This document shows positions 42,169 to 62,469 of a DNA stretch of 64,000 bases, in pieces. Within the stretch, counting starts at the first letter, position 1. Every line of letters starts with the position of its first letter. Location of the stretch: contig NZ_JBBYXL010000003.1 of the NCBI RefSeq assembly GCF_039655865.1, positions 496,001 through 560,000 on the forward strand, read 5' to 3'. The DNA is from Prosthecobacter sp. SYSU 5D2 (GTDB taxonomy: Bacteria; Verrucomicrobiota; Verrucomicrobiia; Verrucomicrobiales; Verrucomicrobiaceae). Both the position numbers and the translations under genes were made by a program. The notes below the pieces were generated by a model. That model did not search any database and was not told where the DNA came from. It saw nothing but the letters and a program-made list of their open reading frames with translations.

Positions 42169-42414
42169 AGAAAGTGACGGACAGGTACGCACTTCATGAG
42201 CCACTTCCTCCAAGAACCCGCACGTCGCACAGAACACTCCGTACTGGACAGCAGATTTAAAGAATCTGCGCAGCATGCATCCCCTGTCCAGGGGAGCTAT
42301 ACTGTAGCCCGCATCCTGGTGGAGTGGTGCCAATAAACCGTGTACAGCCGATGAAAAAGACCCTGAGGAGGCTATTCCAATCGGGGTAGCGGCACGGCTT
42401 TGTTAGCGGCCTCA

Positions 42415-43524: not shown

Positions 43525-43545
43525 CCCTGGAGAATCCGACCGACC

Positions 43546-46722: not shown

Positions 46723-46731
46723 TTTTCGAAC

Positions 46732-48291
46732 ATGAAGAACGTGAAGATCCCGTTTCAATCCCTGGCCGCCCTCTGCCTGCTGGCCACCCTGCAGGCCTGC
46801 TCCACCCCGAACCGCGATACCCTGCCCTCCAATGATCCGCCGCTCCCAGCCCGCTTTCCTGATGCTGGCGGTGGCAGCAGCAGCAGTTCCGGCACGCTCG
46901 GCTGGCAGGATTATTTTACAGATTCCCATCTGAAGTCTCTGATCGGCACGGCGCTGGCGAACAACCAGGAGCTCAACATCCTGATGCAGGAAATCGCCGT
47001 GTCCAAGAGCGAGGTGCTGGAGCGCAAAGGGGCGCTGTTTCCCTTTGTGACCCTGGGCACGCGCGCCGGGCTGGAAAAGGTGGGCCGCTTCACCCGCGAC
47101 GGCGCGGTGGAGGAAAGCCTGGAGATCAAGGAGGGCAAGGAATTCCCGGAGCCGCTGCCTGAATTTGGCGTTGTGGCCGACTTTGACTGGGAGGTGGACA
47201 TCTGGAAGAAGCTGCGCAACGAGCGCAGTGCCGCAGTGCAGCGGTATCTGGCCAGCCAGGAGGGCCGGAGCTTCATGATGACGCACATTGTTGCGGAGAT
47301 CGCCCAGACCTACTATGAACTCGTCGCCCTGGACAACCAGCTCTCCATCCTTCAGCGCACCGTCGGCATCCAAAATGATGCCCTGGGAGCCGTGAAAATG
47401 CAAAAGGACGCCGCCAAGGTGACCGAGTTGGCCGTGCGCCGATTCGACGCGGAGGTGCTCAAAAACCAGAGCCACCTGTTTGAGATCCGGCAGAAGATCA
47501 CGGAGACAGAAAACCGGTTGAACTATCTGGTGGGCCGCTACCCGCAGCCGGTGAACCGCAACTCCTCCGGCTTCGAAACGCTGGCCCTGCGGAGCATCCG
47601 CGCCGGTCTGCCGGCCGGTCTGCTGCGGAACCGGCCGGATGTACGCCAGGCGGAGCTGGAACTGGCCGCCGCCGGGCTGGATGTGAAAGCCGCCGGAGCG
47701 CGCTTTTATCCCGCGCTGAACATCAGGGCCGCCCTGGGCCTGGAGGCCTTCAGCCTGGACCACACGCTGTTCACCACGCCAGAGTCCCTGGTCTATGGTG
47801 TGGCGGCCAACATCGCGGCCCCGCTGATCAACCGCAGCGCCATCCAGGCGGCCTACCAGGGGGCGAGCGCCCGCCAGATCTCCGCCATTTACAGCTACCA
47901 GCAGACCGTGCTGAAAGCCTACATCGAAGTGGTGAACCAGCTCGCCGAGATCCGGAACCTGAACCAGAGCTTTGACCTGAAAGGCCGGCAGGTGGCGGCC
48001 ATGTCCGATTCCATCACCCTATCCACCAAGCTGTTTAACTCTGCCCGCGCGGACTATACGGAAGTGCTGCTTACACAGCGTGAAGCGCTGGAGGCCAGGA
48101 TGGACCTCGTGGAGCTGAAACAGCAGCAGCTCAGCGCCTATGTGAAGGCCTACAAAGCGCTGGGTGGCGGAGCCGCTGACCCCAACGATGGGAAAACACC
48201 TGTCACCGCCTCCGTTTCCGCTGCCGGTCTGGCCCAGCCTGCCAAAGGCGGTCTGTTTCGGAGAATGTTCCCTTACCACGGCGGTACCTAG
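46732..48291 (+). CDS. Outer-membrane efflux channel (NodT/OprM family) lipoprotein
   Basis: The 519-residue protein has a lipoprotein signal (LLATLQACST, Cys23) and two related halves typical of TolC-like channels: WQDYFTDSHLKSLIGTALAN, FDWEVDIWKKLRNERSAA, YYELVALDNQL, then LPAGLLRNRPDVRQAELELAA, ALGLEAFSLD and AAPLINRSAIQAAYQGA. It completes the tripartite efflux pump with the two preceding genes. The short spacing and shared orientation support a single transcript. A hairpin follows the stop. Confidence 0.94.
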   Translation: MKNVKIPFQSLAALCLLATLQACSTPNRDTLPSNDPPLPARFPDAGGGSSSSSGTLGWQDYFTDSHLKSLIGTALANNQELNILMQEIAVSKSEVLERKGALFPFVTLGTRAGLEKVGRFTRDGAVEESLEIKEGKEFPEPLPEFGVVADFDWEVDIWKKLRNERSAAVQRYLASQEGRSFMMTHIVAEIAQTYYELVALDNQLSILQRTVGIQNDALGAVKMQKDAAKVTELAVRRFDAEVLKNQSHLFEIRQKITETENRLNYLVGRYPQPVNRNSSGFETLALRSIRAGLPAGLLRNRPDVRQAELELAAAGLDVKAAGARFYPALNIRAALGLEAFSLDHTLFTTPESLVYGVAANIAAPLINRSAIQAAYQGASARQISAIYSYQQTVLKAYIEVVNQLAEIRNLNQSFDLKGRQVAAMSDSITLSTKLFNSARADYTEVLLTQREALEARMDLVELKQQQLSAYVKAYKALGGGAADPNDGKTPVTASVSAAGLAQPAKGGLFRRMFPYHGGT

Positions 48292-48415: not shown

Positions 48416-51400
48416 CTAACGGGTCTCGATGCGGTCAATGTTCCAGCGGTAAAAATGATCCAGCGGTTTGGCGTTGGTGGCGGTCTGGTAGTCCGGCAGG
48501 CTTGGATGATTCAGGTCCAGGCGGCGGCTGAGCACGGCGCTGCCGGAGGAGGTGGCGATGACCCGGTCGCGGCGGCTGTCAAAACCCTCCGAGGAGGAGG
48601 AGCGGACCTTTTGCAGGTCCTGGGCGATGAAATGCACCTTGTAGGTGTTGGAGCGGGTGGTGAGGCGGGAGTACAGATGGGCATAGGGGCGCTCCTTGCT
48701 GTTGTCCCCGGTCAGGCGGTGGTTGTTCCAGAAGTCTGCCATCTCGTCTTTGGAAACGGTGCCTGAGGCACTGGCGATCCCTTCGGGCACCAGATACTGC
48801 TCGCAGATCTGGCCTGGGGTTAGAAACACCTTTCCATGATCAAACACCTCCTGCTTCCACAGTGCCAGTGTCTGCCGCGCATCCAGATGGCGGCGGAAGC
48901 GGTTCAGCGGTTGCTCCCCAGTTTTATAGGAAGCGGCCGCCGTATCGGGAATGGCCATCAGTGTTTCCGCCTTCATCGCCGCATGCAGAGCGGTGGCGCG
49001 GGTGATGTGGGTGAAGGGCAGGATTTCATGGTTGAGGTTGATTTTTCCCTCCGTCTCCAGGTGCGTGCTGATGGGCTCCGGCTCCAGCACCGGCATCCAG
49101 AAGAGATCCAGCAGCAGGTGGTCAGGCACGCGCTGTGCGCCAAAGTGGTCCGGCTGCGGCCTGAAAAGCAGCGTCTGCCACGGCACCTGGGCACGGGAGC
49201 CGGTGGGCAGGCTGCCAAACATGACGGGTGAAGGAAGCATGCGCTGCGGACTGAAGGCGGCCAGGGTCACGGGCGGCACTTCCTTGCCCACCTGGGAGAC
49301 ATTGTCAAAATAGGGAAGCCTGCCGTCATGCGCCGCCGCCCAGTGGCCGTCATCAGGGCGGTTGCCATAGGGGCCGTCCGGGGCATTGCCCACGCCGTTG
49401 TCGAAATCTCCGGTGACGCCAGGCAGGGCCGGGCCGCGCTCGCCTTTGTCAAGCCGCAGCCCGTCCAAGGTTTTGGATACAGGGAGGTTCGTCCATTTGC
49501 CCAGATTCCAGCTCAGGAGATGCGTGGCCTTGCCTGTCAGGGCGCCTGGCAGGTCTGGCCGTACGGAGGCCGGATAGTTCACCCCGGTGATGTACCCGCG
49601 ATGCTCCGTTGGGGCCTCTGCCAGCAGGGGATCGCGCAGGGTGTGGACCTGGCTCTGGGAACCCCACATGGGATGCGGCACAAAAATGGGGGAGGTGTAG
49701 GAGCCGCTGCGGATCTCCGCCCAGCGCTGGGTGGCGGTGAGGCGGTAGTCGCCATGCGCCGGGGCCAGGGACTGGACAACATCCGTGGCTGCGAGAAAGC
49801 GGCTGCCCGCCGCAGCGGAATGGTGCAGGCGGCCTTTGAGATCATGGACCTCCAGGTCCTTGTCCAAAGACGGCGTGGGCAGGCCGCGGATGTCCGGCAG
49901 CACCAGCGGCACCACCTGGACCAAGTCCACCTTGTCCAGGGTTGCAGGCGCATCATACAGCGCCACCTTCAACTGGTTGGGATCCCGTGCATCGCCCAGG
50001 AATTGCAGCTTCGGCACCGTTCCGTCCGCCTGGGCGCGGATGATGACGGGCTTAAACTGGAGCACGCCTTCAGCAATGGCGCGCACGCCCAGGCTGCCCC
50101 CAGCGCCGTTCCACAGCTTGGGCGGCAGTTCGCCGGAGCTGGCGGTCGTCTGTGAATCCCTGGGCACTAGAGGGACGCCGTTGAGGGTGAAAGTCGGCAG
50201 CGGGGCCTCCCGATGGTCATGGGACAGCGCGCCGTCCGCCGGACCGCCGGCGAGGGCAATGTTGACAAACGGCCGGTAGTCCGTCCAGCCATGCTGGGGC
50301 AGAAATGTTTCCACCAGGAATCCCACCTCCAGTTCGCGGTCGCCCGGATTGCCAGGTCCTGGCGGTTTTCCCCGCTCGCTTTTGCCTTCCAGTGCCGCCT
50401 TGCCTTCCGGCGTCGGGTTTCCTTTGACATTGCCAAACTCATCCACCTCGGCCCGGCAGGTGATGACCAGCGCCACCTCGCTGATGGTGAGCATGCGGCC
50501 CATGCCCTGGATGTGGTTGCTCTCCGCCTTGGGCGTGCGCGACGGGGCCAGTTGCAGGGCGGAGATCTGGCCAAAGCCGTGATGCTCTGCACCGGGACAA
50601 AGCACGGAATACTGCAGTTTGTGATCCAGCTGCATGTCCGCGCAGTTGGCGGCCCGGAGGTAGTCCATCATGCCCAGCAGGATGGCATCCCGGTCCTCAC
50701 CATACTTGGCGGCAAAGGTGGACCCGGTTACGCCCTTGTGGTCAAAGCCCGGAAAGGTCTGGCTGGTGAGGCGCTGGAGGTATTCAAAAAGCGCGCGGTT
50801 GCCGCTGATGACGCGGAAATCATCAATGCCGTTTCCAGGGGCGGACCGCTGCACGAAGTACGCCTTGTCCTTCACCTTGGCGGCCATGGCCACCTTGTGA
50901 TTGTAAACCGTGTCGCGGTTGGCGGCGGAACTGCCCAGTGTATCGCCATTCAGCAGGGTGTCCTTGGTCATCGGCCACATGGCCACGCGGGGCGTGCCAA
51001 AGAGGGTGGTCTCCGGCGCGGCGCTCTGGGTGGTGAGAAAAAAGCGGCTCCTTTGCATCTGCTCCACCGCCTCCGGATGCTGCATGAAAAAGCGGCTGCG
51101 TCGGCGCTGCCCGCTCTTCCCGGCAGCGGTCCCCCACATGCCGGGGAAGCGGGAGTCATCCACATGGTCAAACAGCAGCTCGTCCAGGCAGGCATAGCGG
51201 GCCTGGCGCACGGATTCATGGGAGGCATGGTTCCACAAAACCGGCCAGTCGGCCTCCGTCGTTCCGCCCAGGGAGGTGCCGTCATTTCTTTCCGCCACGG
51301 TTAGCCGGCCCAGCCGCCAGAGGTCGCGGGCATCCTCATAGCTCATCGCTTCCATGGCGGAATTTCCTGTATTGTAAAAGCCCAACGGGGAGAGCCGCCG

Positions 51401-52324
51401 GTTCGGCAGCAGGACGCTGCTCAGGCACACACCGGCGGGATGGCCCGGATGCCGCATGTACTCCAGCCGGGAGGGCACCGTGGCTGCCAGCGCCCTTTCC
51501 TGGGCCGTGTCCGCCCGTGGAGTGTCCCAGAAGGAGCCTTCTGCCGCCGTGTTCACATTCACCTTCGACGACTCATCATCCACCCAGAAGGCAAAGCGTG
51601 AGACGACCGGATTGCTTTTGTCCGCCTCCTCGCCGCCAGCGCCGAAAAATCTGCCCTCCTCGTCCAGCGTGCCCAGCGTTCCGTCGCGGAGCTTGTAGAT
51701 CCAGCGCACCGGCATGGGCAGCCGCTGACCGTTTTCCCCTTCCGCCCTTCTCGGCACCGCACCCTTTTCGTCCCGGTATTCAAAGCCTTCCACGGACGTC
51801 TTCACATCCCCGGTCCAGGCACGGGGATCCACGATGGGAAAGCGCAGCGCGCCCTCCGCCGACATGACCGGCTCATTGAGATCCACATACTCATCCGTCC
51901 GTGCAGCCCAGTCCAAAGGCACATCCTTTTCCACCTGCTCCACGGAATCCGCCGTCATGTCAGCCGCGCTGTACAGCTTCCAGATTTTCTCCAGCCTGCC
52001 GTCCATGCCATGCACCCGGATGGCTCCTGGCTGGCTGGTCCAGGGCTTGGGAACGTTGTTGGAAAAGGTCTCCGAGGTGGCGTTCTTCAACTGCGCCAGG
52101 GCGACGTGGAGGGCATCCTGCGAATGCAAGCGGGCGCGGTCACGGCCTGCCACCAGCACGGATTCCTTGTATCCGTCCCCGGTCACATCCAGCAAGGACA
52201 CCACCAGGATGAGCATCAGGGCGACCATGATCAGCGTCACCAGCAAGGCGACTCCGCGCCGGGGCGCAGGCCGCGCCCGGAGGATGAGGGATGTGAGCTT
52301 CAGCATAGGAATTCCGGTCATCAT
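48416..52324 (-). CDS. Verru_Chthon cassette protein A
   Basis: The 1,302-residue protein opens with a prepilin-like segment, RRGVALLVTLIMVALMLILV, and continues DVTGDGYKESVLVAGRDRAR, the conserved start of Verru_Chthon cassette protein A, found so far in Verrucomicrobia. Other landmarks are WVDDESSKVNVNTAAEGSFW and GKINLNHEILPFTH. The family is thought to be pseudopilin-like and exported, but its job is unknown; partner proteins B, C and D are absent here. The ATG at 52324 overlaps the previous stop by one base (TGATG). An internal ATG at 52306 would give a shorter lead. It is the last gene of the operon. Confidence 0.85.
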   Translation of the reverse strand: MMTGIPMLKLTSLILRARPAPRRGVALLVTLIMVALMLILVVSLLDVTGDGYKESVLVAGRDRARLHSQDALHVALAQLKNATSETFSNNVPKPWTSQPGAIRVHGMDGRLEKIWKLYSAADMTADSVEQVEKDVPLDWAARTDEYVDLNEPVMSAEGALRFPIVDPRAWTGDVKTSVEGFEYRDEKGAVPRRAEGENGQRLPMPVRWIYKLRDGTLGTLDEEGRFFGAGGEEADKSNPVVSRFAFWVDDESSKVNVNTAAEGSFWDTPRADTAQERALAATVPSRLEYMRHPGHPAGVCLSSVLLPNRRLSPLGFYNTGNSAMEAMSYEDARDLWRLGRLTVAERNDGTSLGGTTEADWPVLWNHASHESVRQARYACLDELLFDHVDDSRFPGMWGTAAGKSGQRRRSRFFMQHPEAVEQMQRSRFFLTTQSAAPETTLFGTPRVAMWPMTKDTLLNGDTLGSSAANRDTVYNHKVAMAAKVKDKAYFVQRSAPGNGIDDFRVISGNRALFEYLQRLTSQTFPGFDHKGVTGSTFAAKYGEDRDAILLGMMDYLRAANCADMQLDHKLQYSVLCPGAEHHGFGQISALQLAPSRTPKAESNHIQGMGRMLTISEVALVITCRAEVDEFGNVKGNPTPEGKAALEGKSERGKPPGPGNPGDRELEVGFLVETFLPQHGWTDYRPFVNIALAGGPADGALSHDHREAPLPTFTLNGVPLVPRDSQTTASSGELPPKLWNGAGGSLGVRAIAEGVLQFKPVIIRAQADGTVPKLQFLGDARDPNQLKVALYDAPATLDKVDLVQVVPLVLPDIRGLPTPSLDKDLEVHDLKGRLHHSAAAGSRFLAATDVVQSLAPAHGDYRLTATQRWAEIRSGSYTSPIFVPHPMWGSQSQVHTLRDPLLAEAPTEHRGYITGVNYPASVRPDLPGALTGKATHLLSWNLGKWTNLPVSKTLDGLRLDKGERGPALPGVTGDFDNGVGNAPDGPYGNRPDDGHWAAAHDGRLPYFDNVSQVGKEVPPVTLAAFSPQRMLPSPVMFGSLPTGSRAQVPWQTLLFRPQPDHFGAQRVPDHLLLDLFWMPVLEPEPISTHLETEGKINLNHEILPFTHITRATALHAAMKAETLMAIPDTAAASYKTGEQPLNRFRRHLDARQTLALWKQEVFDHGKVFLTPGQICEQYLVPEGIASASGTVSKDEMADFWNNHRLTGDNSKERPYAHLYSRLTTRSNTYKVHFIAQDLQKVRSSSSEGFDSRRDRVIATSSGSAVLSRRLDLNHPSLPDYQTATNAKPLDHFYRWNIDRIETR

Positions 52325-55300
52325 CAAGGAGCGGCCACCGGCTGGCTGAGGAAGAAGGCTCCGGAGAGAATGGGGGTGACATTCGGCTTCTGGCCGCCGG
52401 TGGGGACCTGCGGCAGCAGGAAGTAGCCGGCAGCCTTGATCTGGCCGTCCGCCAGCTTCACCACCTGGCCCAGCATCTTCACATTCTTGCGGGCCAGCGG
52501 CGGCGTCGTTTCCGCCAGGCTAAAGCTGCCCTTCACGGTGCCTTTGGCCTTTTGGACGGTCAGCTTGACCTTGCCGGCATTCGTCGCGCCGCTGAAATCC
52601 ACCTTATATTTGTCCGTCCAGACAGCACCGGTGACGTCCGCCACGGTAGCGGAGGATTCGATCCCGCCGCCGAAGAAAGTGATGTCCAGAGCGCCGGTTT
52701 CCGGCAGGCCCTCCATGACCGCGCGCTTCGTCGCCGTGCCCATCCAGCTTCCTTCCACCGTCAGGTTCACCGGCCCGAAGAAGCCCGGATAGATGCGTCC
52801 TTTGGTGGCCGGTTTCAGCCAGGTCAGGCCGCCGCTGACCACGCAGTCTCTGGCCTGGCCGCTTTCCGCCACACTCACCTGCCAGGCCCCCATCAGGCTG
52901 CCTTTTTTGGAATGGACCGGCGCATACACGGCCACCTGTCCGTCCGGCCCCAGATGGGTGGCCGCCACGATGGCCTGACCGTCGGCACTCCGGCCTGCCA
53001 CCTTCAGCGTGCCCGCTGGCAGGACGGTGAAGGCGGCATAACCGATGCCCTGTGGAATGGCCGCCGCACCGATGTCCTCATCATCCGCCAGGTCCAGGGC
53101 CACGGTGTAATATCCCTCACGCGAGGTGGCAGGCGCGGTCTTCTTGTTCCAGACATTGCGCCAGCCATTGATCTCCGCCGAGCCAAAAGTGCCGCTCATC
53201 AGACCGGTGTCCGCATCCAGCGTGAGGGTCAGGTTGACGCCGTTCACCGTGGCCTGCACCTCCGGGGCGCTGCTGCCTAGGAAACCCTTGGCAGACTTGG
53301 TGGCGCCGCCGGTTTTCACTTTCACCGTGAACGACCCTTTGGAAGTGGTCGTCAGGGTCACCAGGCTGCCCAGGTTTAAATTGACCGAAAGGTCCCTTGC
53401 GGCCAGGCCGGTGAAGGTGCCGAGCTGGCCTTCCGGAATGTCGGTGACCACCAGGGGAGCGGTGACGGCCACACTGCTGCCGGTGGCGTTGGTGGCGACA
53501 ATCTGGACATCATAAGTGCCGGCGGTGGTCGCCCGGCCGGAGATGAGGGCCCGGCCATTGCTGACGGCAAACTTTAGCCCTTTTGGCAGGCCGGTGATCT
53601 GATACGATGAAGGGCTGTAAGAGGCGGTGATGGTGAAGTCATAATTGGCCCCCACTTTGGAGGGAGAGAACACCACGGGATCAACCACCGGCACCGGCGC
53701 GATGGCCAGGACGTTCAGGTTAAAGAACCGGGTGGCCGTGTAGCCGCCCGCATCCGTGGCCGCCACCGTGAAGGAAAAGTCCCCTGCCGCGAGGGGCCTG
53801 CCGCTGAGCACGCCGTTGGCCGCCAGTGACAGCCCGGCAGGCAGCGTGCCTGATTGCACCTGCCAGCCATACGGAGCCGTGCCGCCGCCCAGGGTCATCT
53901 CCACGTAATAGTTCAGGTTCACCACGCCCTGCGGCAGCGGGTTTTCAGTCAGGATGGCCAGATCAAACAGCACCCAGTCAAAGGTCTTCGTGGCGGTCAG
54001 GCCGTTGTCATCCTGCACCTGCACCGTGAACTGGTATTCACCAGCCTGGTCGGAGGTGCCGGAAAGTACACCTGCATTCGTGAGGCTGATCCCCTCCGGC
54101 AGGCTGCCATTCGTCACGCTCCATGAATAGGGCGCTGAACCGCCGGACACCGCCAGCGGCAGGCTGACCGGCCGCCCGGTCCCACGAGGTGGCAGGGTGC
54201 CGCCGCTGGTGATCTCATAAGGGGTGACGGTGAGGCTGAAGGCTTTTGTCTCAATGGCAGGAAAGGAATCCGTCACCTGCACAGTGAAGCTGAAGCTGCC
54301 CGCCGTCACCGGTGTTCCGGCCAGGACACCGTCCGTGCCCAGGGTGATCCCTGCCGGCAGGTCACCCGCCGTGAGTTCCCAGGTGTAGGGGGAAAGACCG
54401 CCGTTGGCCGCCAGGGGCAGCGAGTAGGCAGCGCCTGCTTGGGCAGCGGGCAGAGCGGCCTCACTGGTGATGGCCAGCGGAGCCGGTGCCAGGGGCGCAC
54501 CGGAGACGCCCCCGACACTCCACGCCACATCCATCTCCACGGAGGTGAAGCTGCCGATGGCTTGCAGCGCACGCTCCGTGACGAGTTCTGAACCGTCAGC
54601 CTGCAGTTCCCGCTGCACGGTTGTGGTTGTCGGCTCAGAAGTGTTGTCCATCCAGGGACCGCCGTTGGCGGCCACACGCACGCGCTGCACCACATCCCCA
54701 AGTCCGGGGATCAGGCCGTTGGTGCGGTAGCGGAGCGCAGGATACTGCTGCCCCTCGGCCTCCACCAGCAGGAGCTGCGGCCGGGTGCGGTTGTCATCCT
54801 CCTCATACGGGTCTCCGCCAAAGGCGTACTCCCCCGCATTGCTGAGACCGTCTTCATCATGATCCACGGTGGGACCTGAGATGCTGTTATTGCTGTAATC
54901 ATCTCCGACCCCGATCGTGGAATTGGCATGGAAGAACATGGCGTTACGCCAGGTGGCATAGGACTCCGGTGCGAAGAGGGCCGTGACCGTGGTGTCTTGT
55001 TGCGGAAACACCAGCTCCAGGCTTTCACCCGGCGTCGTCAGGCCGTCATGAGACCACCCGGTCACCTGCCAGCCGTCTTCTGGGGCTCCAAAAAGGGTGA
55101 GTTCCTCGCCGCCCAGGAAATAGCGGCCATCCAGGGTCCAGGGCAGGTTTTTATCCACCACGCCGGGCCGTCCAAAGCGGACTCCGGGCCGGGACCGCGT
55201 GGCCAGAATGTAACCCAGCTCTTGCACAAAGGGTACGCCGGTGACCACATCCAGTTGGGCCTGCCAGAGGGGCATGGACGCTTCCGGTGCGGCAAAGGTG

Positions 55301-55947
55301 ATTTTAAAATCGCGGACATTGAGTCCGGTCAGGTTCCACTGAAAGGCACAGACGATGCGCTCGCTAAAAGCGCCGGACTGCGGGTCGTCCAGTCCACGAA
55401 AAACCGGGTTGACCGTGACCGGCACACCCGCCTGCTCATAGACCAGTTTCACGCTGTTGACATCCAGGCGGATGCCGCCCGTCTGCGTCTGGAAGATCAC
55501 GTTGGTGACCATGCCTTCGGCCTCCTCAGCCGGTTGATAGGGCACTTCAAATTTCACCACCTCAGAGAAGCTGTAGATGGCATTGGAAGAGGTGATGAAG
55601 GCATCCGTCGCGCCGGTCTGGATCAGCGTGGTGCGTGGGATGGGGTCCGTATCCGGATCCTCATCATGGTCCTCCATCACGGTCGTGGGATTGCCGTCTT
55701 CATCCTCGCCGCCAGTCAGCGCGGGAGGATTGGGGTAATTAAAATTGCCGCTGTTGGTCGAGCCTGGCGGACGTTCAAAGAGGTCCCAGTAGGCGAAATC
55801 GCTGCCGCCTTCCGCCCGGATGGACGGGATGATGAAGCTGCCGCTCTGGGCCTGGGCGTCGCCTGCGGCGCCCAGAAGGGACATCCAGCATGCAGCGCTT
55901 CCTAACAGCGCTGACCTGAGGGAGGAATGAAGTTTGGAAAGGTGCAT
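52324..55947 (-). CDS. Giant secreted protein with putative-Ig repeats and a shared C-terminal domain
   Basis: The 1,207-residue protein has a signal peptide (ending near DAQAQS), an N-terminal module (about 35-270), a bacterial-repeat-like segment (about 275-330), a calcium-type DHDEDGLSNAGEYAFGGDP motif, and at least three He_PIG putative-Ig domains (about 490, 575 and 660; phrases such as LPAGITLGTDGVLAGTPVTA). A fourth, diverged one lies near 750-835. The last 370 residues match the C-terminus of the next protein over their full length, e.g. KGSFTVKVKTGGATKSAKGF and QIKAAGYFLLPQV. It is probably a cell-surface or secreted structural protein; I recognise no enzyme domain. It is the middle gene of the operon. 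Confidence 0.8.
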   Translation of the reverse strand: MHLSKLHSSLRSALLGSAACWMSLLGAAGDAQAQSGSFIIPSIRAEGGSDFAYWDLFERPPGSTNSGNFNYPNPPALTGGEDEDGNPTTVMEDHDEDPDTDPIPRTTLIQTGATDAFITSSNAIYSFSEVVKFEVPYQPAEEAEGMVTNVIFQTQTGGIRLDVNSVKLVYEQAGVPVTVNPVFRGLDDPQSGAFSERIVCAFQWNLTGLNVRDFKITFAAPEASMPLWQAQLDVVTGVPFVQELGYILATRSRPGVRFGRPGVVDKNLPWTLDGRYFLGGEELTLFGAPEDGWQVTGWSHDGLTTPGESLELVFPQQDTTVTALFAPESYATWRNAMFFHANSTIGVGDDYSNNSISGPTVDHDEDGLSNAGEYAFGGDPYEEDDNRTRPQLLLVEAEGQQYPALRYRTNGLIPGLGDVVQRVRVAANGGPWMDNTSEPTTTTVQRELQADGSELVTERALQAIGSFTSVEMDVAWSVGGVSGAPLAPAPLAITSEAALPAAQAGAAYSLPLAANGGLSPYTWELTAGDLPAGITLGTDGVLAGTPVTAGSFSFTVQVTDSFPAIETKAFSLTVTPYEITSGGTLPPRGTGRPVSLPLAVSGGSAPYSWSVTNGSLPEGISLTNAGVLSGTSDQAGEYQFTVQVQDDNGLTATKTFDWVLFDLAILTENPLPQGVVNLNYYVEMTLGGGTAPYGWQVQSGTLPAGLSLAANGVLSGRPLAAGDFSFTVAATDAGGYTATRFFNLNVLAIAPVPVVDPVVFSPSKVGANYDFTITASYSPSSYQITGLPKGLKFAVSNGRALISGRATTAGTYDVQIVATNATGSSVAVTAPLVVTDIPEGQLGTFTGLAARDLSVNLNLGSLVTLTTTSKGSFTVKVKTGGATKSAKGFLGSSAPEVQATVNGVNLTLTLDADTGLMSGTFGSAEINGWRNVWNKKTAPATSREGYYTVALDLADDEDIGAAAIPQGIGYAAFTVLPAGTLKVAGRSADGQAIVAATHLGPDGQVAVYAPVHSKKGSLMGAWQVSVAESGQARDCVVSGGLTWLKPATKGRIYPGFFGPVNLTVEGSWMGTATKRAVMEGLPETGALDITFFGGGIESSATVADVTGAVWTDKYKVDFSGATNAGKVKLTVQKAKGTVKGSFSLAETTPPLARKNVKMLGQVVKLADGQIKAAGYFLLPQVPTGGQKPNVTPILSGAFFLSQPVAAP

Positions 55948-55981
55948 GCTGGATGTCGTCAGAATGGGAATGGAATCAGAA

Positions 55982-58900
55982 TCAGGGGACCAACGGCTGG
56001 CTGATCTGGAAGACGCCGGAGAGGATGGGCGTGGCGTTCGGCTTCTGGCCGTCCGTGGCGATCTGGGGCAGCAGGAAGTAACCGGCCGCTTTGATCTGCC
56101 CGTCGCTCATCCGCACCACCTGGCCCATGAACTTGACGCCCTTGCGTACCAGCGGCGGAGTGGTCTCGGTCAATGTCAGGCTGCCGGTGACGGCGCCGGT
56201 GGCCTTGTTGACCTTGAGGGTCACCTTGCCTGCATTCACCGCATCGCTGAAGTCCGCCTTGTACTTCTCTGTCCAGAGAGCACCGGTCACATCCGGATTG
56301 GTCGCGGAGGCTTCCACGCCGGCTCCTTCGAAGGCCATGCTGAAGCTGCCGGTGGCGGGCAGGCCAAGGACGACCGGGCGCTTGGTGGCGGTGCCCAGGT
56401 AGCCGCCTTCGGCCACCAGATCCACCGGACCAAAGCCTGCCGCATACACGCGGCCTTTGCCGGCGGGTTTCAGCCAGGTTAGGGAGCCGCTGACGTCATT
56501 GCCCATGAACAGGCCGTCTTCGTCCTCATCCACCGTCAGGGTACCGAGCATCGTGCCTTTATTCGCATACTGGGTGGCATAGAGCGCCAGTTCACCATGG
56601 GGGCCCATCGTTGTGGAGGACGTGAGGGTCTGGCCGTCGGCGGATTTGCCGATGATCTTCACCGTGCCGGCGGGCAGGATGGTGAAGGTGGCATAACCCA
56701 CGCCCTGAGGGATGGCGGCCGCGCCGAGATCGTCTTCATCCGCCAGGTCCAAAATGACGCTGTAGAAACCTTCGCGGCTGCTCGGCGGGTTCAGCTTTTT
56801 GTCCCAGACGTTCAGCCAGCCGTTCACAGCGGCCGCTCCATAGGTGCCGCTGACCAGGCCGGTTTCAGCATCCAGCGTCAGGGCCAGGTCAATGCCGTTC
56901 ACCGCCACCTGCACCTGGGGTGCGGCGGATGCCAGGAAGCCCTTGGCGGACTTCGTTGCGGAACCCGATTTCACCTTCACTGTGAAGCTGCCTTTCCCCG
57001 TCGTGGTGAGGGTGAACTGGCTGCCCAGACCGGCATTGGCCGTGGCATCCCGGGCGATGAGACCGGTGAAGGTGCCCACCTGCGTGGCAGGCAGGGCGGT
57101 GACGACCAAAGGCGCGCTGACCACGGCACTGGTGCCGGTGGTGTTCGCGGCGCTGACCTGCACCAGATAAACACCGGCCAGGGAAGCGCGGCCACTGATG
57201 ATGCCGGTGGCGCGGTCCACTTTCAGTCCGGCGGGCAGGCCGCTGACATTGAACTGCTTGGGATAGTTGGCCGCAGAAACGGTGTAGGCAAAGTCTGCGC
57301 CGACGGTGGTCGCGCCGAACGCCACAGGGTTCATGACCGGCAACAGGAGAGACGGTGAGACCGTCAGCTCGATCACCCGGCTTTGGGTGGATTCCTCCGC
57401 ATCCGTGACGGTGAAGGTCAGGGAGGCGGTTGTCTCTGCAGTCGGCGTGCCGGTGAGCAGACCGGCAGCACTCAATGTTAGACCGGCAGGCAGAGTGCCT
57501 TCCGTCACGGACCATTCATAGGGGGCCAGACCGTCCACGGCTTCAAGCTGCACGGAATACTCCCGGCCAATGACGCCCACCGGCAGTTCCGCCGTGACAA
57601 TCTCAATGCCGGAAACCACGGCCAGCGTGTAGGTTTTTTCAGCCTCATATTCCTCTGCATCCTGGGCGATGACGGTGAAGGTCACCTCTTCCAAAGTCGT
57701 GGGCGTGCCGCTGATGACACCGCTGCTGCTGAGGGTCAGACCGGCAGGCAGTTCGGATTCATCCGCCAGGCTCCAGGAGTGAGGCAGGGTGCCGCCTTCA
57801 GCCTCAAGCTGCACGTTGTAAAGCTGGCCTTTGACCGCATCCGCCAGCGTCTCCGTGGTGATCTCCACGGTCTTCAATTTCATGCTGTCCGCCACGTAAC
57901 CGTAGGGGCTGAATTTGGTGTCCACGACCACCTTGTCGAAGCTGAAATGCGCCTGGCCTTCCGGACCGGAGATGGCGATGACATAGGTGGCCTCGTTGCC
58001 AGGAATCTCCCACTTGGCCCAATACTGCGCGGTATTGGCAGCGCCGCCCTGGACGACCATCGTCGGTGGCACATCGTCAATTGTGGCGGTGATTTCGCCC
58101 GCAAAGCTGCCGCCACCCATGCCGCTCGTTGCTGAGGCGATCTGCAGGAAGATGGTGGTGAATCCGGCCTCACCCACCACGCCGCTGGTGGGCACGGTGA
58201 TCTCTTCCGCCAGGGTGCCGCTGAGGATGTAAAGATTGCTGCCACCGGCGAACTGATGGATCTCGCTGTTCGTGGTGCGGAACCGGGCCTGGGTGCCTGC
58301 GTAGTTGCCGATATCAGGCGTGCTGTCATCAATGGGCGCGGTCACTCCGGGCGTGCCGAAGCCGTCCCAGCCAAACCACGTCGTGCCTGCGGTGCCACGG
58401 CTGCTCGGTGCCACAATGCCCGTGGCCTGGTCCAAATTAAAGGCAATCGCCGCCGGCTCCTCCAGGATCATCGTGTCTTCCTGCGCCTCAGGCCCCCAAT
58501 AGGTATCAATGGCGATCTTGTCGAAGGACATGTGGGCATTGCCAAACATGGCATGTGGCACACCGCCGATGGTGAATTCATAGGTGGCCGCATTGCCTGG
58601 CACCACCCACTTCACCCACACCTGGCCACGGCCCAGGGCATTGACGCCGTGAATGACCTGCGGAGCCACGTCGTTGATGTTTTCAAAGGTCCACTGGCTG
58701 ATGAAATTGCCGCTGCTCGCGACAAGCTGCGCGATGATGGTCGTGGTCCCCTCGGCCCCCACGGTGCCGTTCGTGGCCACGGTCACGCGCTCGGCGATCT
58801 CCGCCGTGGCGGAGCTGGAGCCGCTGTAGAAATTCCCAGTGCTCGCTGCGCGGTGAAGCTGGCCGTTGGTGGTCTCGAACCTCACACCCGCGATTCCGGT

Positions 58901-59113
58901 ATCCCCAATATCTGGGGTGGTATCGTTGAGGAAGGTGCCGGGGGCGGGATCTTCAAAGTTGTCCCAGCCAAAATAAGTGGTGTTGGCTTGCAGCCGGGTG
59001 GACGGCTCCGCCATGGCGGAGAGCTGGTCCATCGTGAAATCAGTGGCCAGGCTGGAGAGGGTGCAACATCCCAAAAAGAGGGCGGCCACACGGGAGGCGA
59101 AGTGTTTGGTCAT
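55982..59113 (-). CDS. Giant secreted paralogue with duplicated N-terminal module and putative-Ig repeats
   Basis: The 1,043-residue protein has a signal peptide (ending near SLATDF). Two related N-terminal modules of about 180 residues follow: TYFGWDNFEDP...TPDIG...RFETTNGQLH and TWFGWDGFGTP...TPDIG...RFRTTNSEIH, each ending in AHFSFDKxxxDT/AHMSFDKxxxDT. Two He_PIG domains (about 415-585), a diverged third (592-665) and the C-terminal domain shared with the neighbour (670-1043) complete it. It is first in the operon, 34 bp before its paralogue, and 210 bp from the divergent AraC regulator. The function is unknown; a surface-exposed role is inferred. Confidence 0.8.
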   Translation of the reverse strand: MTKHFASRVAALFLGCCTLSSLATDFTMDQLSAMAEPSTRLQANTTYFGWDNFEDPAPGTFLNDTTPDIGDTGIAGVRFETTNGQLHRAASTGNFYSGSSSATAEIAERVTVATNGTVGAEGTTTIIAQLVASSGNFISQWTFENINDVAPQVIHGVNALGRGQVWVKWVVPGNAATYEFTIGGVPHAMFGNAHMSFDKIAIDTYWGPEAQEDTMILEEPAAIAFNLDQATGIVAPSSRGTAGTTWFGWDGFGTPGVTAPIDDSTPDIGNYAGTQARFRTTNSEIHQFAGGSNLYILSGTLAEEITVPTSGVVGEAGFTTIFLQIASATSGMGGGSFAGEITATIDDVPPTMVVQGGAANTAQYWAKWEIPGNEATYVIAISGPEGQAHFSFDKVVVDTKFSPYGYVADSMKLKTVEITTETLADAVKGQLYNVQLEAEGGTLPHSWSLADESELPAGLTLSSSGVISGTPTTLEEVTFTVIAQDAEEYEAEKTYTLAVVSGIEIVTAELPVGVIGREYSVQLEAVDGLAPYEWSVTEGTLPAGLTLSAAGLLTGTPTAETTASLTFTVTDAEESTQSRVIELTVSPSLLLPVMNPVAFGATTVGADFAYTVSAANYPKQFNVSGLPAGLKVDRATGIISGRASLAGVYLVQVSAANTTGTSAVVSAPLVVTALPATQVGTFTGLIARDATANAGLGSQFTLTTTGKGSFTVKVKSGSATKSAKGFLASAAPQVQVAVNGIDLALTLDAETGLVSGTYGAAAVNGWLNVWDKKLNPPSSREGFYSVILDLADEDDLGAAAIPQGVGYATFTILPAGTVKIIGKSADGQTLTSSTTMGPHGELALYATQYANKGTMLGTLTVDEDEDGLFMGNDVSGSLTWLKPAGKGRVYAAGFGPVDLVAEGGYLGTATKRPVVLGLPATGSFSMAFEGAGVEASATNPDVTGALWTEKYKADFSDAVNAGKVTLKVNKATGAVTGSLTLTETTPPLVRKGVKFMGQVVRMSDGQIKAAGYFLLPQIATDGQKPNATPILSGVFQISQPLVP

Positions 59114-59323
59114 AGAGTTTGTGGAGTCGAGAGGGCAGGAACCGGGTGTTGAACCTGCGTCTCATTAACTCCTCACTGACCTCCTGCGCTTCTCTCAGCG
59201 TGTCTTGAACTGTCGCTTGATTGCGTTTTCGCAAACCACCGCCAATCCGCAGCAAATGAGAGCAAGCTTGGCGTTCAAACCCGAGTGATTAACGGCGGCA
59301 CTGAGAATGAATCGCATTTTAAA
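59114..59323. promoter_or_regulatory. Divergent promoter region of the giant-protein operon and the AraC gene
   Basis: About 200 bp lie between the divergent genes. A perfect inverted repeat, TTGCG-TTTT-CGCAA (59221-59234), sits near the middle and is a candidate operator or hairpin. No clear -35/-10 pair can be fixed by eye. Confidence 0.4.
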
Positions 59324-60208
59324 ATGCCTCCCGCACCGTCATCTACTCCGCCCACCTGGCTCTGGAATACCAGCCAGCGATCCAGCGCGGGCAGCAGTCC
59401 CTGGCATGAAGCGCTTAACCCGGACGCGCTCTGTTTCCACCTCAATTTTCACGGTGAAGGCCTGCTCACCCTGGCCAACGGGCGCGGCATGAGCATCAAA
59501 CCACAAAGCCTGGTCTGCTGCCGCGGTGCCAAAACGGCGGCCCGTACCCTGACCCGCGACCGCCACGAGTGCCTGACTTTGGTTTACCCGGACGCCTGGC
59601 TGACGGAGTACCTGCGCGAGGTGATGGGCCAGGTCCCGGATGCCGTCCGCCGCCTGGTGACGAGCCCTTTTCCCACCCTCGGGGTGCAGGTGCGGGCCCT
59701 GAGTCCGGAGGACCTGATCTGGGCGCGCAGCCTCATGATGTCCTGCATCAGCGATGCCGTGCGCCGCATGCTGGACACCGCCCGCCTGGCGGACTTTCTC
59801 TTGCGGGTTCTGTTCTCCTCCGGCGAGAGCCTGAATGAGTCTCCCGCCCTGCTGTCGCGCTCCCAGCGCGCCTCGCACGACCGCATCGAGCGGGTGAAAA
59901 ACCAGATCCTCCGCCACCTGGATGAAAACCATGACCTCGAATCCCTGGCGGCCGAGGCGGGATGCAGCCCGCATTACCTGAGCCGCACCTTTGCCCAGGT
60001 GAATGGCATTCCGCTCATGCTCTGGATCCGCCGCACCCGCATCGAGCGCGCGGCAGAGCTCATCGCCAGCGGGCGCTGCAATGTCTCCGAAGCAGCCTTG
60101 GAGGTCGGCTACAGCAGCTTCTCGCACTTCAGCCGCGCTTTCCAGGAGGAGAAGGGGGTCTCCCCCAGCAAATGGATCTCCCACCTCACGAACACCCGCA
60201 CACATTGA
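59324..60208 (+). CDS. AraC family transcriptional regulator
   Basis: The 294-residue regulator has an N-terminal cupin-like sensing domain (WLWNTSQRSSAGSSPWHEAL, LNFHGEGLLTLANGRG) and a C-terminal double helix-turn-helix: DLESLAAEAGCSPHYLSRTF and NVSEAALEVGYSSFSHFSRA, with the final RAFQEEKGVSPSKW signature. It diverges from the 11-kb operon of giant proteins, so it is the obvious candidate to control it. The inducer is unknown. The start is taken at ATG 59324; a GTG at 59285 is also in frame. Confidence 0.9.
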   Translation: MPPAPSSTPPTWLWNTSQRSSAGSSPWHEALNPDALCFHLNFHGEGLLTLANGRGMSIKPQSLVCCRGAKTAARTLTRDRHECLTLVYPDAWLTEYLREVMGQVPDAVRRLVTSPFPTLGVQVRALSPEDLIWARSLMMSCISDAVRRMLDTARLADFLLRVLFSSGESLNESPALLSRSQRASHDRIERVKNQILRHLDENHDLESLAAEAGCSPHYLSRTFAQVNGIPLMLWIRRTRIERAAELIASGRCNVSEAALEVGYSSFSHFSRAFQEEKGVSPSKWISHLTNTRTH

Positions 60209-60234: not shown

Positions 60235-62469
60235 ATGACCATGAAAAAATCCTTCCTGTTAGTCCTGCTCAGCACGGCGCTGGCCGCCGCGTCCCCTCCG
60301 CCGCCGCACCTGCCCGCCCCGGTGGCCAGCTTTGGCGCCGCCGCCACCCCGGAAGGCCATGTCTATATCTATGGCGGCCATGCCGGAACCCGCCACAAGT
60401 ATAACAAAGAGGATGTCAATGGCGACCTCTACCTTTGGAAGGAAGGCATGACAGAATGGAAGAAACTGGGCAGCAGCGAGCCCGCCCAGGGCGCTTCCCT
60501 CATCGCCCTGCCGGACCGCATTCTCCGCATCGGCGGCATGGCGGCGCAGAACAGCAAGACCGAAAAGCAGGACCTCTGGTCCAGCGAGACGACCACCAGC
60601 TACGACCTGGAAAAAGGCACCTGGACCGAGCTGCCGAAATTCACCGAGCGCCGCTCCAGCCATGACAGCACCGTCATCGGCAACACCCTCTACGTCGTCG
60701 GCGGCTGGTCCCTCGGCGGTGGCACGGTAAAGTCCATTGACCCCGTCTGGCACGGCACCTACCTGACGCTGGACCTGTCCAAGCCCGATGCCACCTGGCA
60801 GACGCACCCGCAGCCCTTCAAGCGCCGCGCCCTGGCCGTACAGGCCGTGGGCGGCCGGCTCTATGCCATCGGCGGCATGAATGACGAGGAAGAAACCGTC
60901 ACTCACGTCAATGTCCTGGACACCAAAACCGGCGAGTGGAGCACTGGCCCGGCCCTCCCCGGCGACAAGCTGGGCGGCTTCGGCTTCAGCGCCATCGCCC
61001 ATGAAGGACGTCTCTTCGCCAGCGGTTTGCCCGGAGATCTGCTGGAGCTGCGCGGCGATGCCTGGGTGCCCGTGGCCAAGTTGAAGTATCCACGCTTCTT
61101 CCACCGCCTGCTTCCTGCCGGCCCTGGCAAGCTCATCGCCCTCGGCGGTGAGAGCCGGAAGGGTGAAAAGGCCTCCCCGGAAATCATCGAGCTGCCCGCC
61201 AAGGACTCCGCCCCGATTGAAACCGCCGAAGCAGCCCCTGCCACCAAGCTGCCCCTGGGCCCCACGCCCACCTGGCCGGAAAACCTGCCTGCCGCCGAAA
61301 GCGACTGGCCCGGCTACCAGGGCCCGCGTGGTAATAGCACCACCTCCGAGGTGGGCTTTCTGACCGACTGGCCCGCCGACGGCCCGCCCGTCGCCTGGCG
61401 GGATCATCTCGGCCTGGGCCTGGCCAGCTTTGCCGTGGTGGGTGACCAGGTGGTCACCGCCAGCAACGACGGCCAGGACAAGGACACCGTGTGGTGCCTG
61501 GAACTGAAGACCGGCAAAGTCCTCTGGAAGCATGTCATGGACGTGCCCACCAAGAGCCATGAGATGAGCATTGTCCCCTACGGTCCCGCCGCCACACCGG
61601 CCATCACCGGCGGCAAGGCCTATGCGCTCAGCCGCGAAGGCGACCTCGTCTGCCTGGACATGAAGACGGGCACGCCCGTGTGGCAGAAGCACCTGATCAA
61701 AGACCTGGGTGGCAAGCGCCCGGTGTATGGTTATGGCGGCAGCCCCGCAGTCATCGCCGGCAAGGTCTATCTGGACATCGGCGGCCAGGGCAAGTCCACC
61801 ACCTGCCTGGATGCGAATACCGGCGAGACCGTCTGGCAGACAGGCGATGGCGAAGCCGGCTACAGCACGCCCTTCATCACCCAGCATGCCGGGCACGATG
61901 CCCTGGTCCTTTTTAAAGGCGAGGCCCTGGAACTCCGCTCCCCGGTTAACGGCAAATTGTACGCCGCCCATGAGACGACCACCCGTGACTACTGCAACTG
62001 CGCCACGCCCATCGTGGTGGACGGCCTGATCTTCATCAGCCATACCGGCAACATGGGCGCCCGTGCGCTGGACTGGAAGCATGAAGGCCTGGTGGAACGC
62101 TGGACGGACAAGGACCTGGGCCTGCTCTTCCACAGCGGCATGCCTTGGGGCCAGAATGTACTGGCCTTTAACGATGCCCTTCGCGGCGGCAATGACCTGC
62201 GGCTGGTGGACCTGTCCAGCGGCCAGATGCGCTGGCAGGACAAAGAGATCCCCAAAGGCACCGGCCTCCTGACCGATGACGGCCACGCCCTCCTGCTCAC
62301 CAACCTGGGCGAGCTCGTGCTGGCCAAGGTGCAGGCTGACAAACTGGACATCCTTTCCCGCGTGCAGGCCCTGCCTGCGAAGGCCTGGTGCCAGCCCGTC
62401 CTGAGCCACCGCCATCTGCTATGCAAGAACAACAACGGCGACGTGATTTGTTATGATCTGACCAAGTGA
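60235..62469 (+). CDS. Secreted Kelch-repeat / PQQ-like double beta-propeller protein
   Basis: The 744-residue protein has a signal peptide (MTMKKSFLLVLLSTALAAAS), then Kelch repeats (about residues 35-330) with repeated GG and W phrases (VYIYGGHAG, LYVVGGWSLGGG, LYAIGGMNDEEETV). A linker leads to a PQQ-like propeller (about 365-740) with DWPGYQGPRGNS, CLELKTGKVLWKH, CLDMKTGTPVWQK and CLDANTGETVWQT. The second half resembles the quinoprotein-like proteins common in Planctomycetes; the key catalytic residues of true PQQ dehydrogenases are not obvious, so a scaffold role is as likely. The ATG at 60241 is an alternative start. It converges with the DUF1552 gene, 6 bp away. Confidence 0.88.
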   Translation: MTMKKSFLLVLLSTALAAASPPPPHLPAPVASFGAAATPEGHVYIYGGHAGTRHKYNKEDVNGDLYLWKEGMTEWKKLGSSEPAQGASLIALPDRILRIGGMAAQNSKTEKQDLWSSETTTSYDLEKGTWTELPKFTERRSSHDSTVIGNTLYVVGGWSLGGGTVKSIDPVWHGTYLTLDLSKPDATWQTHPQPFKRRALAVQAVGGRLYAIGGMNDEEETVTHVNVLDTKTGEWSTGPALPGDKLGGFGFSAIAHEGRLFASGLPGDLLELRGDAWVPVAKLKYPRFFHRLLPAGPGKLIALGGESRKGEKASPEIIELPAKDSAPIETAEAAPATKLPLGPTPTWPENLPAAESDWPGYQGPRGNSTTSEVGFLTDWPADGPPVAWRDHLGLGLASFAVVGDQVVTASNDGQDKDTVWCLELKTGKVLWKHVMDVPTKSHEMSIVPYGPAATPAITGGKAYALSREGDLVCLDMKTGTPVWQKHLIKDLGGKRPVYGYGGSPAVIAGKVYLDIGGQGKSTTCLDANTGETVWQTGDGEAGYSTPFITQHAGHDALVLFKGEALELRSPVNGKLYAAHETTTRDYCNCATPIVVDGLIFISHTGNMGARALDWKHEGLVERWTDKDLGLLFHSGMPWGQNVLAFNDALRGGNDLRLVDLSSGQMRWQDKEIPKGTGLLTDDGHALLLTNLGELVLAKVQADKLDILSRVQALPAKAWCQPVLSHRHLLCKNNNGDVICYDLTK

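Follow-up and report, generated by a model that had tools for sequence, protein, structure and literature searches.

The locus studied here raises the question of why two very large putative exported proteins should be encoded head-to-tail with a pseudopilin-like protein, and what the three might do together. It lies in a 64,000 nucleotide stretch of the Prosthecobacter sp. SYSU 5D2 genome (contig NZ_JBBYXL010000003.1, positions 496,001 to 560,000), which is called the window below. Our analysis suggests, at what we judge to be about an even chance, that the operon supplies a dedicated giant minor pseudopilin of the GspK type, Verru_Chthon A (A below), together with two giant client proteins.

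A three-gene unit and its relatives

The features of the locus are collected in table 1. The coordinates, strands and tight spacing of the three genes (a 34 bp gap and a 1 bp overlap) were right in the original prediction, as was the AraC-type regulator gene that faces them. The reading frame of the last gene, P0001, spans 48416–52327 and is open from a TTG codon at 52327. A consensus scan found no sigma-70-like site in the divergent intergenic region or at the two gene junctions, a result that says little at 1 site against 1.6 expected, and the promoter and terminator scan gave nothing informative.

Table 1. Features of the locus (window coordinates)
Feature	Position	Strand	Remarks
Verru_Chthon A (P0001)	48416..52324	-	start codon ATG at 52324; putative giant minor pseudopilin resembling GspK
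Prepilin-type N-terminus of A	52190..52273	-	basic residues, G, hydrophobic helix (RRG followed by VALLVTLIMVALM); +5 is V instead of E
TGATG	52322..52326	-	P0002 stop and P0001 ATG (52324) share one base
P0002	52324..55947	-	1207 aa; giant, S2 type, putative exported; signal-peptide-like start, unique N-terminal part, He_PIG, CTD
CTD of P0002	52327..53454	-	residues 832–1207; HMM match 832–1200
He_PIG stretch of P0002	53458..54471	-	residue 493 to CTD; PF05345 9.4e-46, 4 stretches
Gap P0003/P0002	55948..55981	-	34 bp; P0002 starts 34 bp past the P0003 stop
P0003	55982..59113	-	1043 aa; giant, NT3 type, putative exported; signal-peptide-like start, He_PIG, CTD
CTD of P0003	55985..57118	-	residues 666–1043; all-beta; first part resembles TbpB-type barrels
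He_PIG stretch of P0003	57119..57853	-	residue 421 to CTD; PF05345 8.2e-30, 3 stretches
Repeats in P0003			two copies, each about 180 aa, noticed on visual inspection
Divergent intergenic region	59114..59284	.	presumed promoter region, both directions
AraC-type regulator (P0004)	59285..60208	+	HTH_18 4.3e-22; faces the three genes, 171 bp away
Kelch and PQQ beta-propeller protein, exported	60235..62469	+	adjoins the AraC gene; Pfam Kelch, PQQ_2

The search of other genomes that had been proposed for this gene order found it whole in four of them and partial in a fifth, with A proteins 50–62% identical to that of the window; an order kept to this extent is beyond chance, and A is clearly not unique to this strain. 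The unit is conserved, and joint production of the three proteins, as originally proposed, is probable. The unit is not family-wide, as a close A orthologue is present in only 6 of the 68 family genomes. A relative of the AraC gene adjoins the locus and faces it in three of the four whole relatives (L066, L067 and L068) and none was found at the L070 locus; relatives of the Kelch/PQQ protein adjoin it in all four, the one in L070 being shorter.

Verru_Chthon A, a GspK-like protein, and its cassettes

The protein encoded by P0001 is a clear member of the TIGR02600 family (760.5 bits; cut-off 332.3), so its original identification as a pseudopilin-like Verru_Chthon A stands. TIGRFAM/NCBIfam had already named this family as protein A of a Verru_Chthon cassette (A–D: TIGR02600, TIGR02598, TIGR02599 and TIGR02596), although we found no mention of Verru_Chthon or of the four TIGR accessions in the literature searched. 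Its N-terminus is of the prepilin type and has V instead of E at position +5; among 96 aligned A proteins none has E in this column (a residue is present in 90 and a gap in 6). GspK, the proposed substrate-contacting tip of the type II secretion system (T2SS) pseudopilus, is described as lacking Glu5 (PMC7541494, PMC5207764), and a hydrophobic replacement at this position is given as a GspK feature in PMC5207764.

The fold points the same way. The model of an A homologue (G040, 36% identical to the window's A) was matched by VIA-align to GspK chain 3ci0_K with Z 12.4 and an rmsd of 3.5 over 232 of 280 residues, while the next chain scored 3.5; the GspK fold with an inserted helical domain was thus seen in the homologue's model rather than in the window's own protein. 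With Foldseek alone 3ci0_K ranks 9th for this model (E 0.67). Sequence comparisons are fainter: P0001 matches the GspK model NF037980 in residues 24–102 (5.2e-7) with 29.5 bits, under the 130-bit cut-off, and this genome's own T2SS GspK, with 40.9 bits, is likewise under it. Pfam gave no T2SSK match for A, an hhalign profile-profile alignment of A with the local GspK covered 42 N-terminal columns only (probability 22%), and profile searches of the N- and C-terminal halves of A against PDB sequences returned nothing useful. Assignment of A to the GspK kind is nevertheless supported by its prepilin-type N-terminus, its lack of Glu5 and the fold of the homologue's model, and on the strength of that modelling Verru_Chthon A looks like an oversized GspK, the minor pseudopilin that forms the cap in type II secretion. 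It differs from the GspK of a T2SS tip (GspK-GspI-GspJ-GspH) in being about four times as long as the local one (1303 versus 309 aa), in being encoded with giants outside the T2SS locus, and in that several A proteins can occur in one genome. Of the three exported proteins originally proposed, the third is pseudopilin-like and membrane-anchored and not an ordinary exported protein. Nor is the view that no described system has this composition quite accurate, since the A family already had a name and the evidence here ties it to the pseudopilus tip, which makes the locus a variant of a known machine part and not a system without relatives.

In relatives A is mostly accompanied by B, C and D. 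Our survey comprised 101 stretches drawn from the TIGR02600 matches listed, the close A orthologues and further stretches of this genome, a selection from the A genes of the 68 genomes; one locus with a weak TIGR02600 match (L074) was set aside from the cassette counts, in which related loci are non-independent observations. Where a motif was located, glutamate stands at +5 in nearly all B (58/63), C (77/80) and D (74/79) proteins; the motif finder could not handle 4 of the 96 A proteins, nor 13 of the 76 B, 9 of the 89 C and 6 of the 85 D proteins. D weakly matches the gspH model (19/20, best 3e-13), C the gspJ model (15/20, best 2e-6) and B the XpsI (6/21, best 1.2e-5) and gspI (3/21) models. 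The same proteins match other pilin models, sometimes better than those of the T2SS tip: B matches PRK10557 (8/21) and PilV (6/21), C matches ComGE (15/20) and also HpsC, whose best E-value of 1.6e-7 surpasses that of gspJ, and D matches ComGD (19/20). Profile searches of B, C and D against PDB sequences gave pilin N-termini at most, plus chance-like repeats. Because A is GspK-like and lacks Glu5 while B, C and D weakly resemble GspI, GspJ and GspH, the Verru_Chthon cassettes look like alternative pseudopilus-tip sets.

The window's clade departs from this arrangement. Its A follows two giants that carry a common C-terminal domain (CTD), and no HMM match to B, C or D was found near it at E 0.1 in frames of at least 45 aa in the window and in L066–L070 (L069 is 6955 bases only). 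Among the 96 A genes those without B, C and D are the six of this clade and that of L135, which has none of the three in its 20-kb stretch and no giant before A; a six-frame search of L146 found all three.

Giant genes beside A and their C-terminal domain

A same-strand gene of at least 1000 aa adjoins A in 63 of the 96 cassettes, the other 33 lacking such a neighbour upstream and downstream alike, and in 17 of the 96 the gene upstream of A is on the opposite strand. Where the gene immediately upstream lies on A's strand (77 cassettes), it has at least 1000 aa in 55 cases and at least 2000 aa in 43, as against 17 and 2, respectively, among 512 other genes of the same loci. When genes cut by the locus end are excluded, the values are 22 and 12 of 43 upstream of A versus 14 and 0 of 418 in the background, so the size bias persists with or without the cut genes. 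A cassette elsewhere in this genome has the order B, 5876-aa CTD giant, A, C, D, and in the clade with a giant between B and A the B match is on A's strand, 17.1–23.5 kb upstream of it, with a CTD gene adjoining A, in 10 of 10 cassettes.

The original description of P0002 and P0003 as paralogues with putative-Ig content is borne out by their He_PIG stretches and C-terminal parts (55% identity over about 620 residues), and to these the likeness is confined; the N-terminal parts are unlike, and N-terminal queries from P0003 and P0002 matched no gene of the S2 type and of the NT3 type, respectively, in the relatives' loci. The two CTDs of a locus group by genome in all five loci (support 0.93–1.00), with 60–69% identity within a locus versus 44–59% between orthologues; L066 comes nearest to an exception, with 60.2% within the genome and up to 59.6% in comparison with the window. 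Judged from these sequences, the paired CTDs of one genome seem to change in concert, as if fitted to one partner.

An AlphaFold2 model of the P0003 CTD is all-beta (pLDDT 93.6, pTM 0.90), and VIA-align matches its residues 7–104 to fHbp (Z 9.6), NHBA (9.1), HphA (8.9) and the TbpB C-lobe (8.2), the matches listed ranging from 9.6 to 8.0, although a Z of 8–10 barely exceeds the usual best of an unmatched model. The Pfam families listed at E 1 for 40 CTD members include none of the TbpB type, and the sole match of the CTD profile among PDB sequences was a photosystem protein at E 0.079. An outer-membrane autotransporter barrel was considered for the CTD and rejected: Pfam gave no such match in P0002 or P0003 at E 0.1, none is among the families listed for the 40 members at E 1, and the best VIA-align matches are small soluble barrels.

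The CTD is not exclusive to A-linked proteins. Counted from the search rows, 21 CTD frames are present in this genome, 3 in A loci and 18 away from any A, and the 55 large genes upstream of A include 17 with a CTD and 38 without, so a link to A neither requires the domain nor follows from it.

A proposed pseudopilus tip with its own clients, and the alternatives

The genome has a T2SS locus of its own, with T2SSF, GspG, T2SSK_1st and secretin matches above the cut-offs, and homologues of its GspK are present in 68 of 68 family genomes. If the operon does encode a tip protein with two clients, P0003 and P0002 would cross the inner membrane via Sec and their CTDs would meet A in the periplasm, at the tip of a pseudopilus built by this housekeeping T2SS, which would then push both out through the secretin and onto the cell surface; the set would be turned on by the AraC regulator upon a signal. 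Since no B, C or D lies near the window's A, this reading requires partners supplied in trans. A may stand in for the ordinary GspK, and its GspI, GspJ and GspH subunits may come from the T2SS locus or be the B, C and D of a cassette on contig 5. PMC6211770 describes the T2SS tip complex as critical for recognizing substrates; we infer that the clients are exported in this way and that A recognizes their CTDs. The surface or export role in the original prediction is in this sense supported, as a predicted one. A broader and tentative idea is that verrucomicrobial genomes might have one T2SS each, with interchangeable tip sets that are each encoded with their own giant client; in this operon the CTD would serve as a folded targeting domain at the C-terminus, with its own giant GspK to read it, and so make up a definable T2SS export signal with its cognate reader.

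The giants could instead be adhesins mounted on the tip and not secreted cargo, with A at the tip of a pseudopilus, or of a filament akin to a type IV pilus, carrying them outside as PilX and other minor pilins do with PilY1; we consider this rather unlikely. The layout is like that of the type IVa minor-pilin clusters with a large PilY1 gene described in PMC7541494, where a large exported protein is encoded with minor pilins of which one (PilX) lacks Glu5, as GspK does, where several sets can serve one machine (three such clusters in M. xanthus), and where PilY1 is called an analogue of T2SS substrates. The giant gene inside the B-A-C-D set of one clade fits such adhesins, and an architecture of He_PIG and beta-rich parts would suit them. 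On the other hand the window has two different giants for one A, Pfam finds no PilY1/PilC-type beta-propeller domain in P0002 or P0003 at E 0.1, and the fold of A matches GspK, a bulky T2SS cap.

It is less probable still that the three genes merely share a promoter and a regulon, A being a spare T2SS pseudopilin and the giants reaching the surface by another route. Such a loose association would account for the CTD frames away from A, the large upstream genes without a CTD, and the L135 A with neither partners nor a giant. The strong size bias of the genes adjoining A argues against it, as do the distant B and adjoining CTD gene in every cassette of the B-giant-A clade and the concerted change of the two CTDs. 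Finally, the CTD is very improbably a cargo mark of type XI (Slam) secretion, a barrel that a Slam-like outer-membrane protein would take as the signal for export, with A incidental: the barrel matches above recall type XI cargo, which has a variable N-terminal part and a common eight-stranded, generally C-terminal barrel (PMC12282271), but the Z values are little above background, the TbpB-like barrel stands at the beginning and not at the end of a CTD of about 370 aa with more than one barrel-like part, and no Slam gene was recognized in this genome (no PF04575, SlipAM, match, a weak test as the control genomes have none either).

The reading we prefer thus remains that of a tip protein encoded with its clients. 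We know of no general answer to how the T2SS recognizes folded cargo. Co-encoded pairs of tip protein and client, with the client gene sometimes inside the set of tip genes, would make T2SS cargo recognition testable by swapping parts, and if confirmed would offer a direct way to study the choice of cargo by a secretion machine. They may also point to a function for four families with names that are silent on it, and to an export route for the giant proteins of this phylum.

Gene order in the window and in related genomes

The three very large genes of the operon lie head-to-tail, with a gap of 34 bp between P0003 and P0002 and a one-base overlap (TGATG) between P0002 and P0001, which agrees with the spacing given in the original prediction. 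The AraC-type gene, which had been called divergent, does lie opposite the giant operon, and the third protein is indeed Verru_Chthon A (here "A"), scoring 760.5 bits on TIGR02600 (cut-off 332.3). Both giants, P0002 and P0003, have N-termini that read as signal-peptide-like, contain He_PIG domains (Pfam) and terminate in a common C-terminal domain (CTD) of about 370 residues. That they are paralogues holds for part of their length: they are 55% identical across about 620 residues, but queries with their N-terminal parts found no cross-type gene match in the relatives' loci.

Features of the operon, its surroundings and related loci
Feature	Location	Coordinates	Strand	Remarks
Short frame	window	5465-5719		presumably resembling a transposase remnant
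RND-type efflux operon	window	42400-48291		adaptor, permease, outer-membrane channel; faces the A gene and ends 124 bp from its end
P0001 (A)	window	48416-52324	minus	TIGR02600 Verru_Chthon A
P0002	window	52324-55947	minus	S2-type giant, 1207 aa
P0003	window	55982-59113	minus	NT3-type giant, 1043 aa
AraC-type gene	window	59285-60208		faces the three minus-strand genes
Kelch + PQQ gene	window	60235-62469		exported beta-propeller protein; adjoins the AraC gene
Frame matching part of the CTD	own contig 3	563948-564880		about 4 kb past the window's right end
Second cassette (L071, L072)	own contig 5	about 130956-156436		order B, giant, A, C, D
Second CTD gene	L069	4676-6955		flanks the A gene on the opposite side, in convergent orientation

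P0001 has a match at E 1e-20 in 62 of the 68 family genomes, and a close orthologue in six (own genome counted), those in G014, G006, G039, G001 and G019 being 62, 61, 57, 54 and 50% identical to it. Looking for the order in other genomes, the check first suggested, recovered NT3-type giant, S2-type giant and A complete in L066, L067, L068 and L070; the L069 contig starts within a CTD gene whose end is 16 bp ahead of A. The AraC gene is present beside the operon in L066, L067 and L068 and was not found at L070. The Kelch/PQQ gene, possibly a third output of the AraC regulator, is kept in all four complete loci (with a shorter frame in L070).

Verru_Chthon A and its cassette partners

The N-terminus of A consists of basic residues, a glycine and then a hydrophobic helix in which position +5 is V. 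When 96 A proteins are aligned, this column has no E (90 residues, 6 gaps); among proteins in which the motif was located, E is at +5 in 58/63 B, 77/80 C and 74/79 D, the other Verru_Chthon cassette proteins. Lack of E at +5 and large size are given as hallmarks of the GspK family in PMC5207764. For structure prediction the A protein of G040 (residues 59-1258), which shares 36% identity with the window's A, was used together with a 35-sequence alignment. The model (pLDDT 75.3, pTM 0.82, 214 residues below 50) matches the type II secretion (T2SS) GspK chain 3ci0_K in VIA-align with Z 12.4 (rmsd 3.5, 232 of 280 residues; next chain 3.5), although Foldseek alone placed that chain only 9th (E 0.67). 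Since the match stretches across model residues 1-1199, we read A as a GspK core carrying large insertions. Points against it are that A is far below the cut-off of the GspK model NF037980 (29.5 vs 130 bits), although the local T2SS GspK (40.9) is below it as well; that Pfam did not find T2SSK in A; and that hhalign of A against the local GspK aligned the N-terminal helix only. We regard A as a well-supported equivalent of GspK.

The equivalence of B, C and D to GspI, GspJ and GspH is tentative. GspH is matched by 19/20 D proteins (best 3e-13) and GspJ by 15/20 C proteins (best 2e-6), while for B the counts are 6/21 with XpsI (1.2e-5) and 3/21 with GspI; all members with scores shown are under the curated cut-offs, and the matches are partly due to the prepilin helix, which every pilin has. 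Non-Gsp pilin models fit equally often or better (ComGD for D, 19/20; ComGE for C, 15/20, with HpsC best at 1.6e-7; PRK10557 and PilV for B, 8/21 and 6/21). In relatives A is usually accompanied by B, C and D: by gene calls the 96 A genes are arranged as ABCD (59), ACD (11), A alone (8), BCDA (6), DBCA (4) and rarer forms; in L146, called as A alone, a six-frame search recovered B, C and D. No paper on Verru_Chthon or on TIGR02600, TIGR02598, TIGR02599 or TIGR02596 was found in the literature searched.

The window's A and its close orthologues, six proteins in all, form a single clade (support 1.0), and no B, C or D turned up when the window's frames and those of L066-L070 were searched. The own genome has a single B and a single C (at E 0.001), both in the contig 5 cassette, where D is also present. 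The window's A must therefore either depend on subunits encoded elsewhere or be independent of them. A T2SS locus on own contig 6 has T2SSF, GspG, T2SSK_1st (2e-10) and secretin above cut-offs and T2SSJ-like and T2SSM-like matches under them; homologues of its GspK are present in 68/68 family genomes.

Across the phylum, A is above the TIGR02600 cut-off in 7 of 288 genomes, six of them within the family. Matches at E 0.001 occur in 157/288 (two candidates scored per genome); among the weak matches listed, most cover nothing beyond the N-terminal prepilin helix. The frames concerned are often 700-1400 aa long and perhaps represent a broader group of giant proteins of the GspK kind.

Giant neighbours and the C-terminal domain

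In 77 cassettes a same-strand gene lies directly upstream of A; it encodes at least 1000 aa in 55 of them and at least 2000 aa in 43, whereas only 17 and 2 of the 512 other genes of those loci reach these sizes. Once genes truncated at the end of a locus are removed from both sets, the counts are 22/43 and 12/43 for the upstream genes and 14/418 and 0/418 for the others, so the size bias shrinks when cut genes are treated alike, yet is still strong. On either side of A, a same-strand neighbour of at least 1000 aa is present in 63 of the 96 cases and absent in 33; related loci among these repeat one another, and of the 21 A clusters at 50% identity 18 have at least one member with such a neighbour (upstream in 14). 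The giant of the contig 5 cassette (5876 aa, exported) lies between B and A and has the CTD at its end. All 10 cassettes in the clade of that cassette have a CTD-bearing gene directly ahead of A. Each of them also has a B match that shares the contig and strand of A and is 17.1-23.5 kb upstream of it (the B of G013 has one internal stop), a distance with enough room for a CTD giant; such giants between B and A were read as frames in G018 (5689 aa) and G014 (5796 aa) as well as in the own genome. In six loci with ordinary A-B-C-D cassettes (L079, L080, L087, L088, L093, L098) an AraC-type gene is ahead of the giant on the same strand, about 300-330 bp off.

Most frames carrying the CTD have it at the C-terminal end or close to it, the exceptions being L044, L181 and, in the tandem pairs of L146 and L152, the first copy. 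It has no convincing family match in Pfam or NCBIfam, and a match at 1e-6 was found in 19/288 genomes of the phylum (at most six candidates scored per genome). Its model (pLDDT 93.6, pTM 0.90) is nearly all-beta. In VIA-align, TbpB-type barrels match residues 7-104 (fHbp, Z 9.6; NHBA, 9.1; HphA, 8.9), designed barrels match residues 108-242 (8.3) and HpuA matches residues 115-252 (7.2); all these values are only modestly higher than what an unmatched model usually reaches at best.

In a tree, the two CTDs pair by genome in 5/5 whole loci (support 0.93-1.00), with five other own-genome CTDs outside the pairs, while the N-terminal parts of the giants retain their own types. CTD identity is 60-69% within a genome vs 44-59% between orthologues (the margin is smallest in L066). 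This excess starts near P0003 residue 600; the He_PIG part ahead of it has hardly any (means 51 vs 49, 44 vs 43 and 42 vs 39%), and exact DNA runs are no longer than 26 bases. We read the pairing as old, repeated homogenisation, which is to be expected if both CTDs have to fit one partner.

A possible export route for the giants

The closest model comes from M. xanthus, where PilY1 goes together with minor pilins: PMC7541494 describes three such sets for one machine and PilY1 as an analogue of T2SS substrates. We therefore retain, as a less likely reading, the idea that the giants are tip adhesins. Most likely, A would act as a pseudopilus cap and carry two clients, P0002 and P0003, to the secretin. 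Of this picture, the GspK-like nature of A, the kept gene order and the presence of a T2SS locus in the genome are the supported parts. The giants would then be exported via T2SS, with the CTD as the putative recognized part; the operon would be under AraC control, and B, C and D, or GspI, GspJ and GspH, may be supplied in trans.
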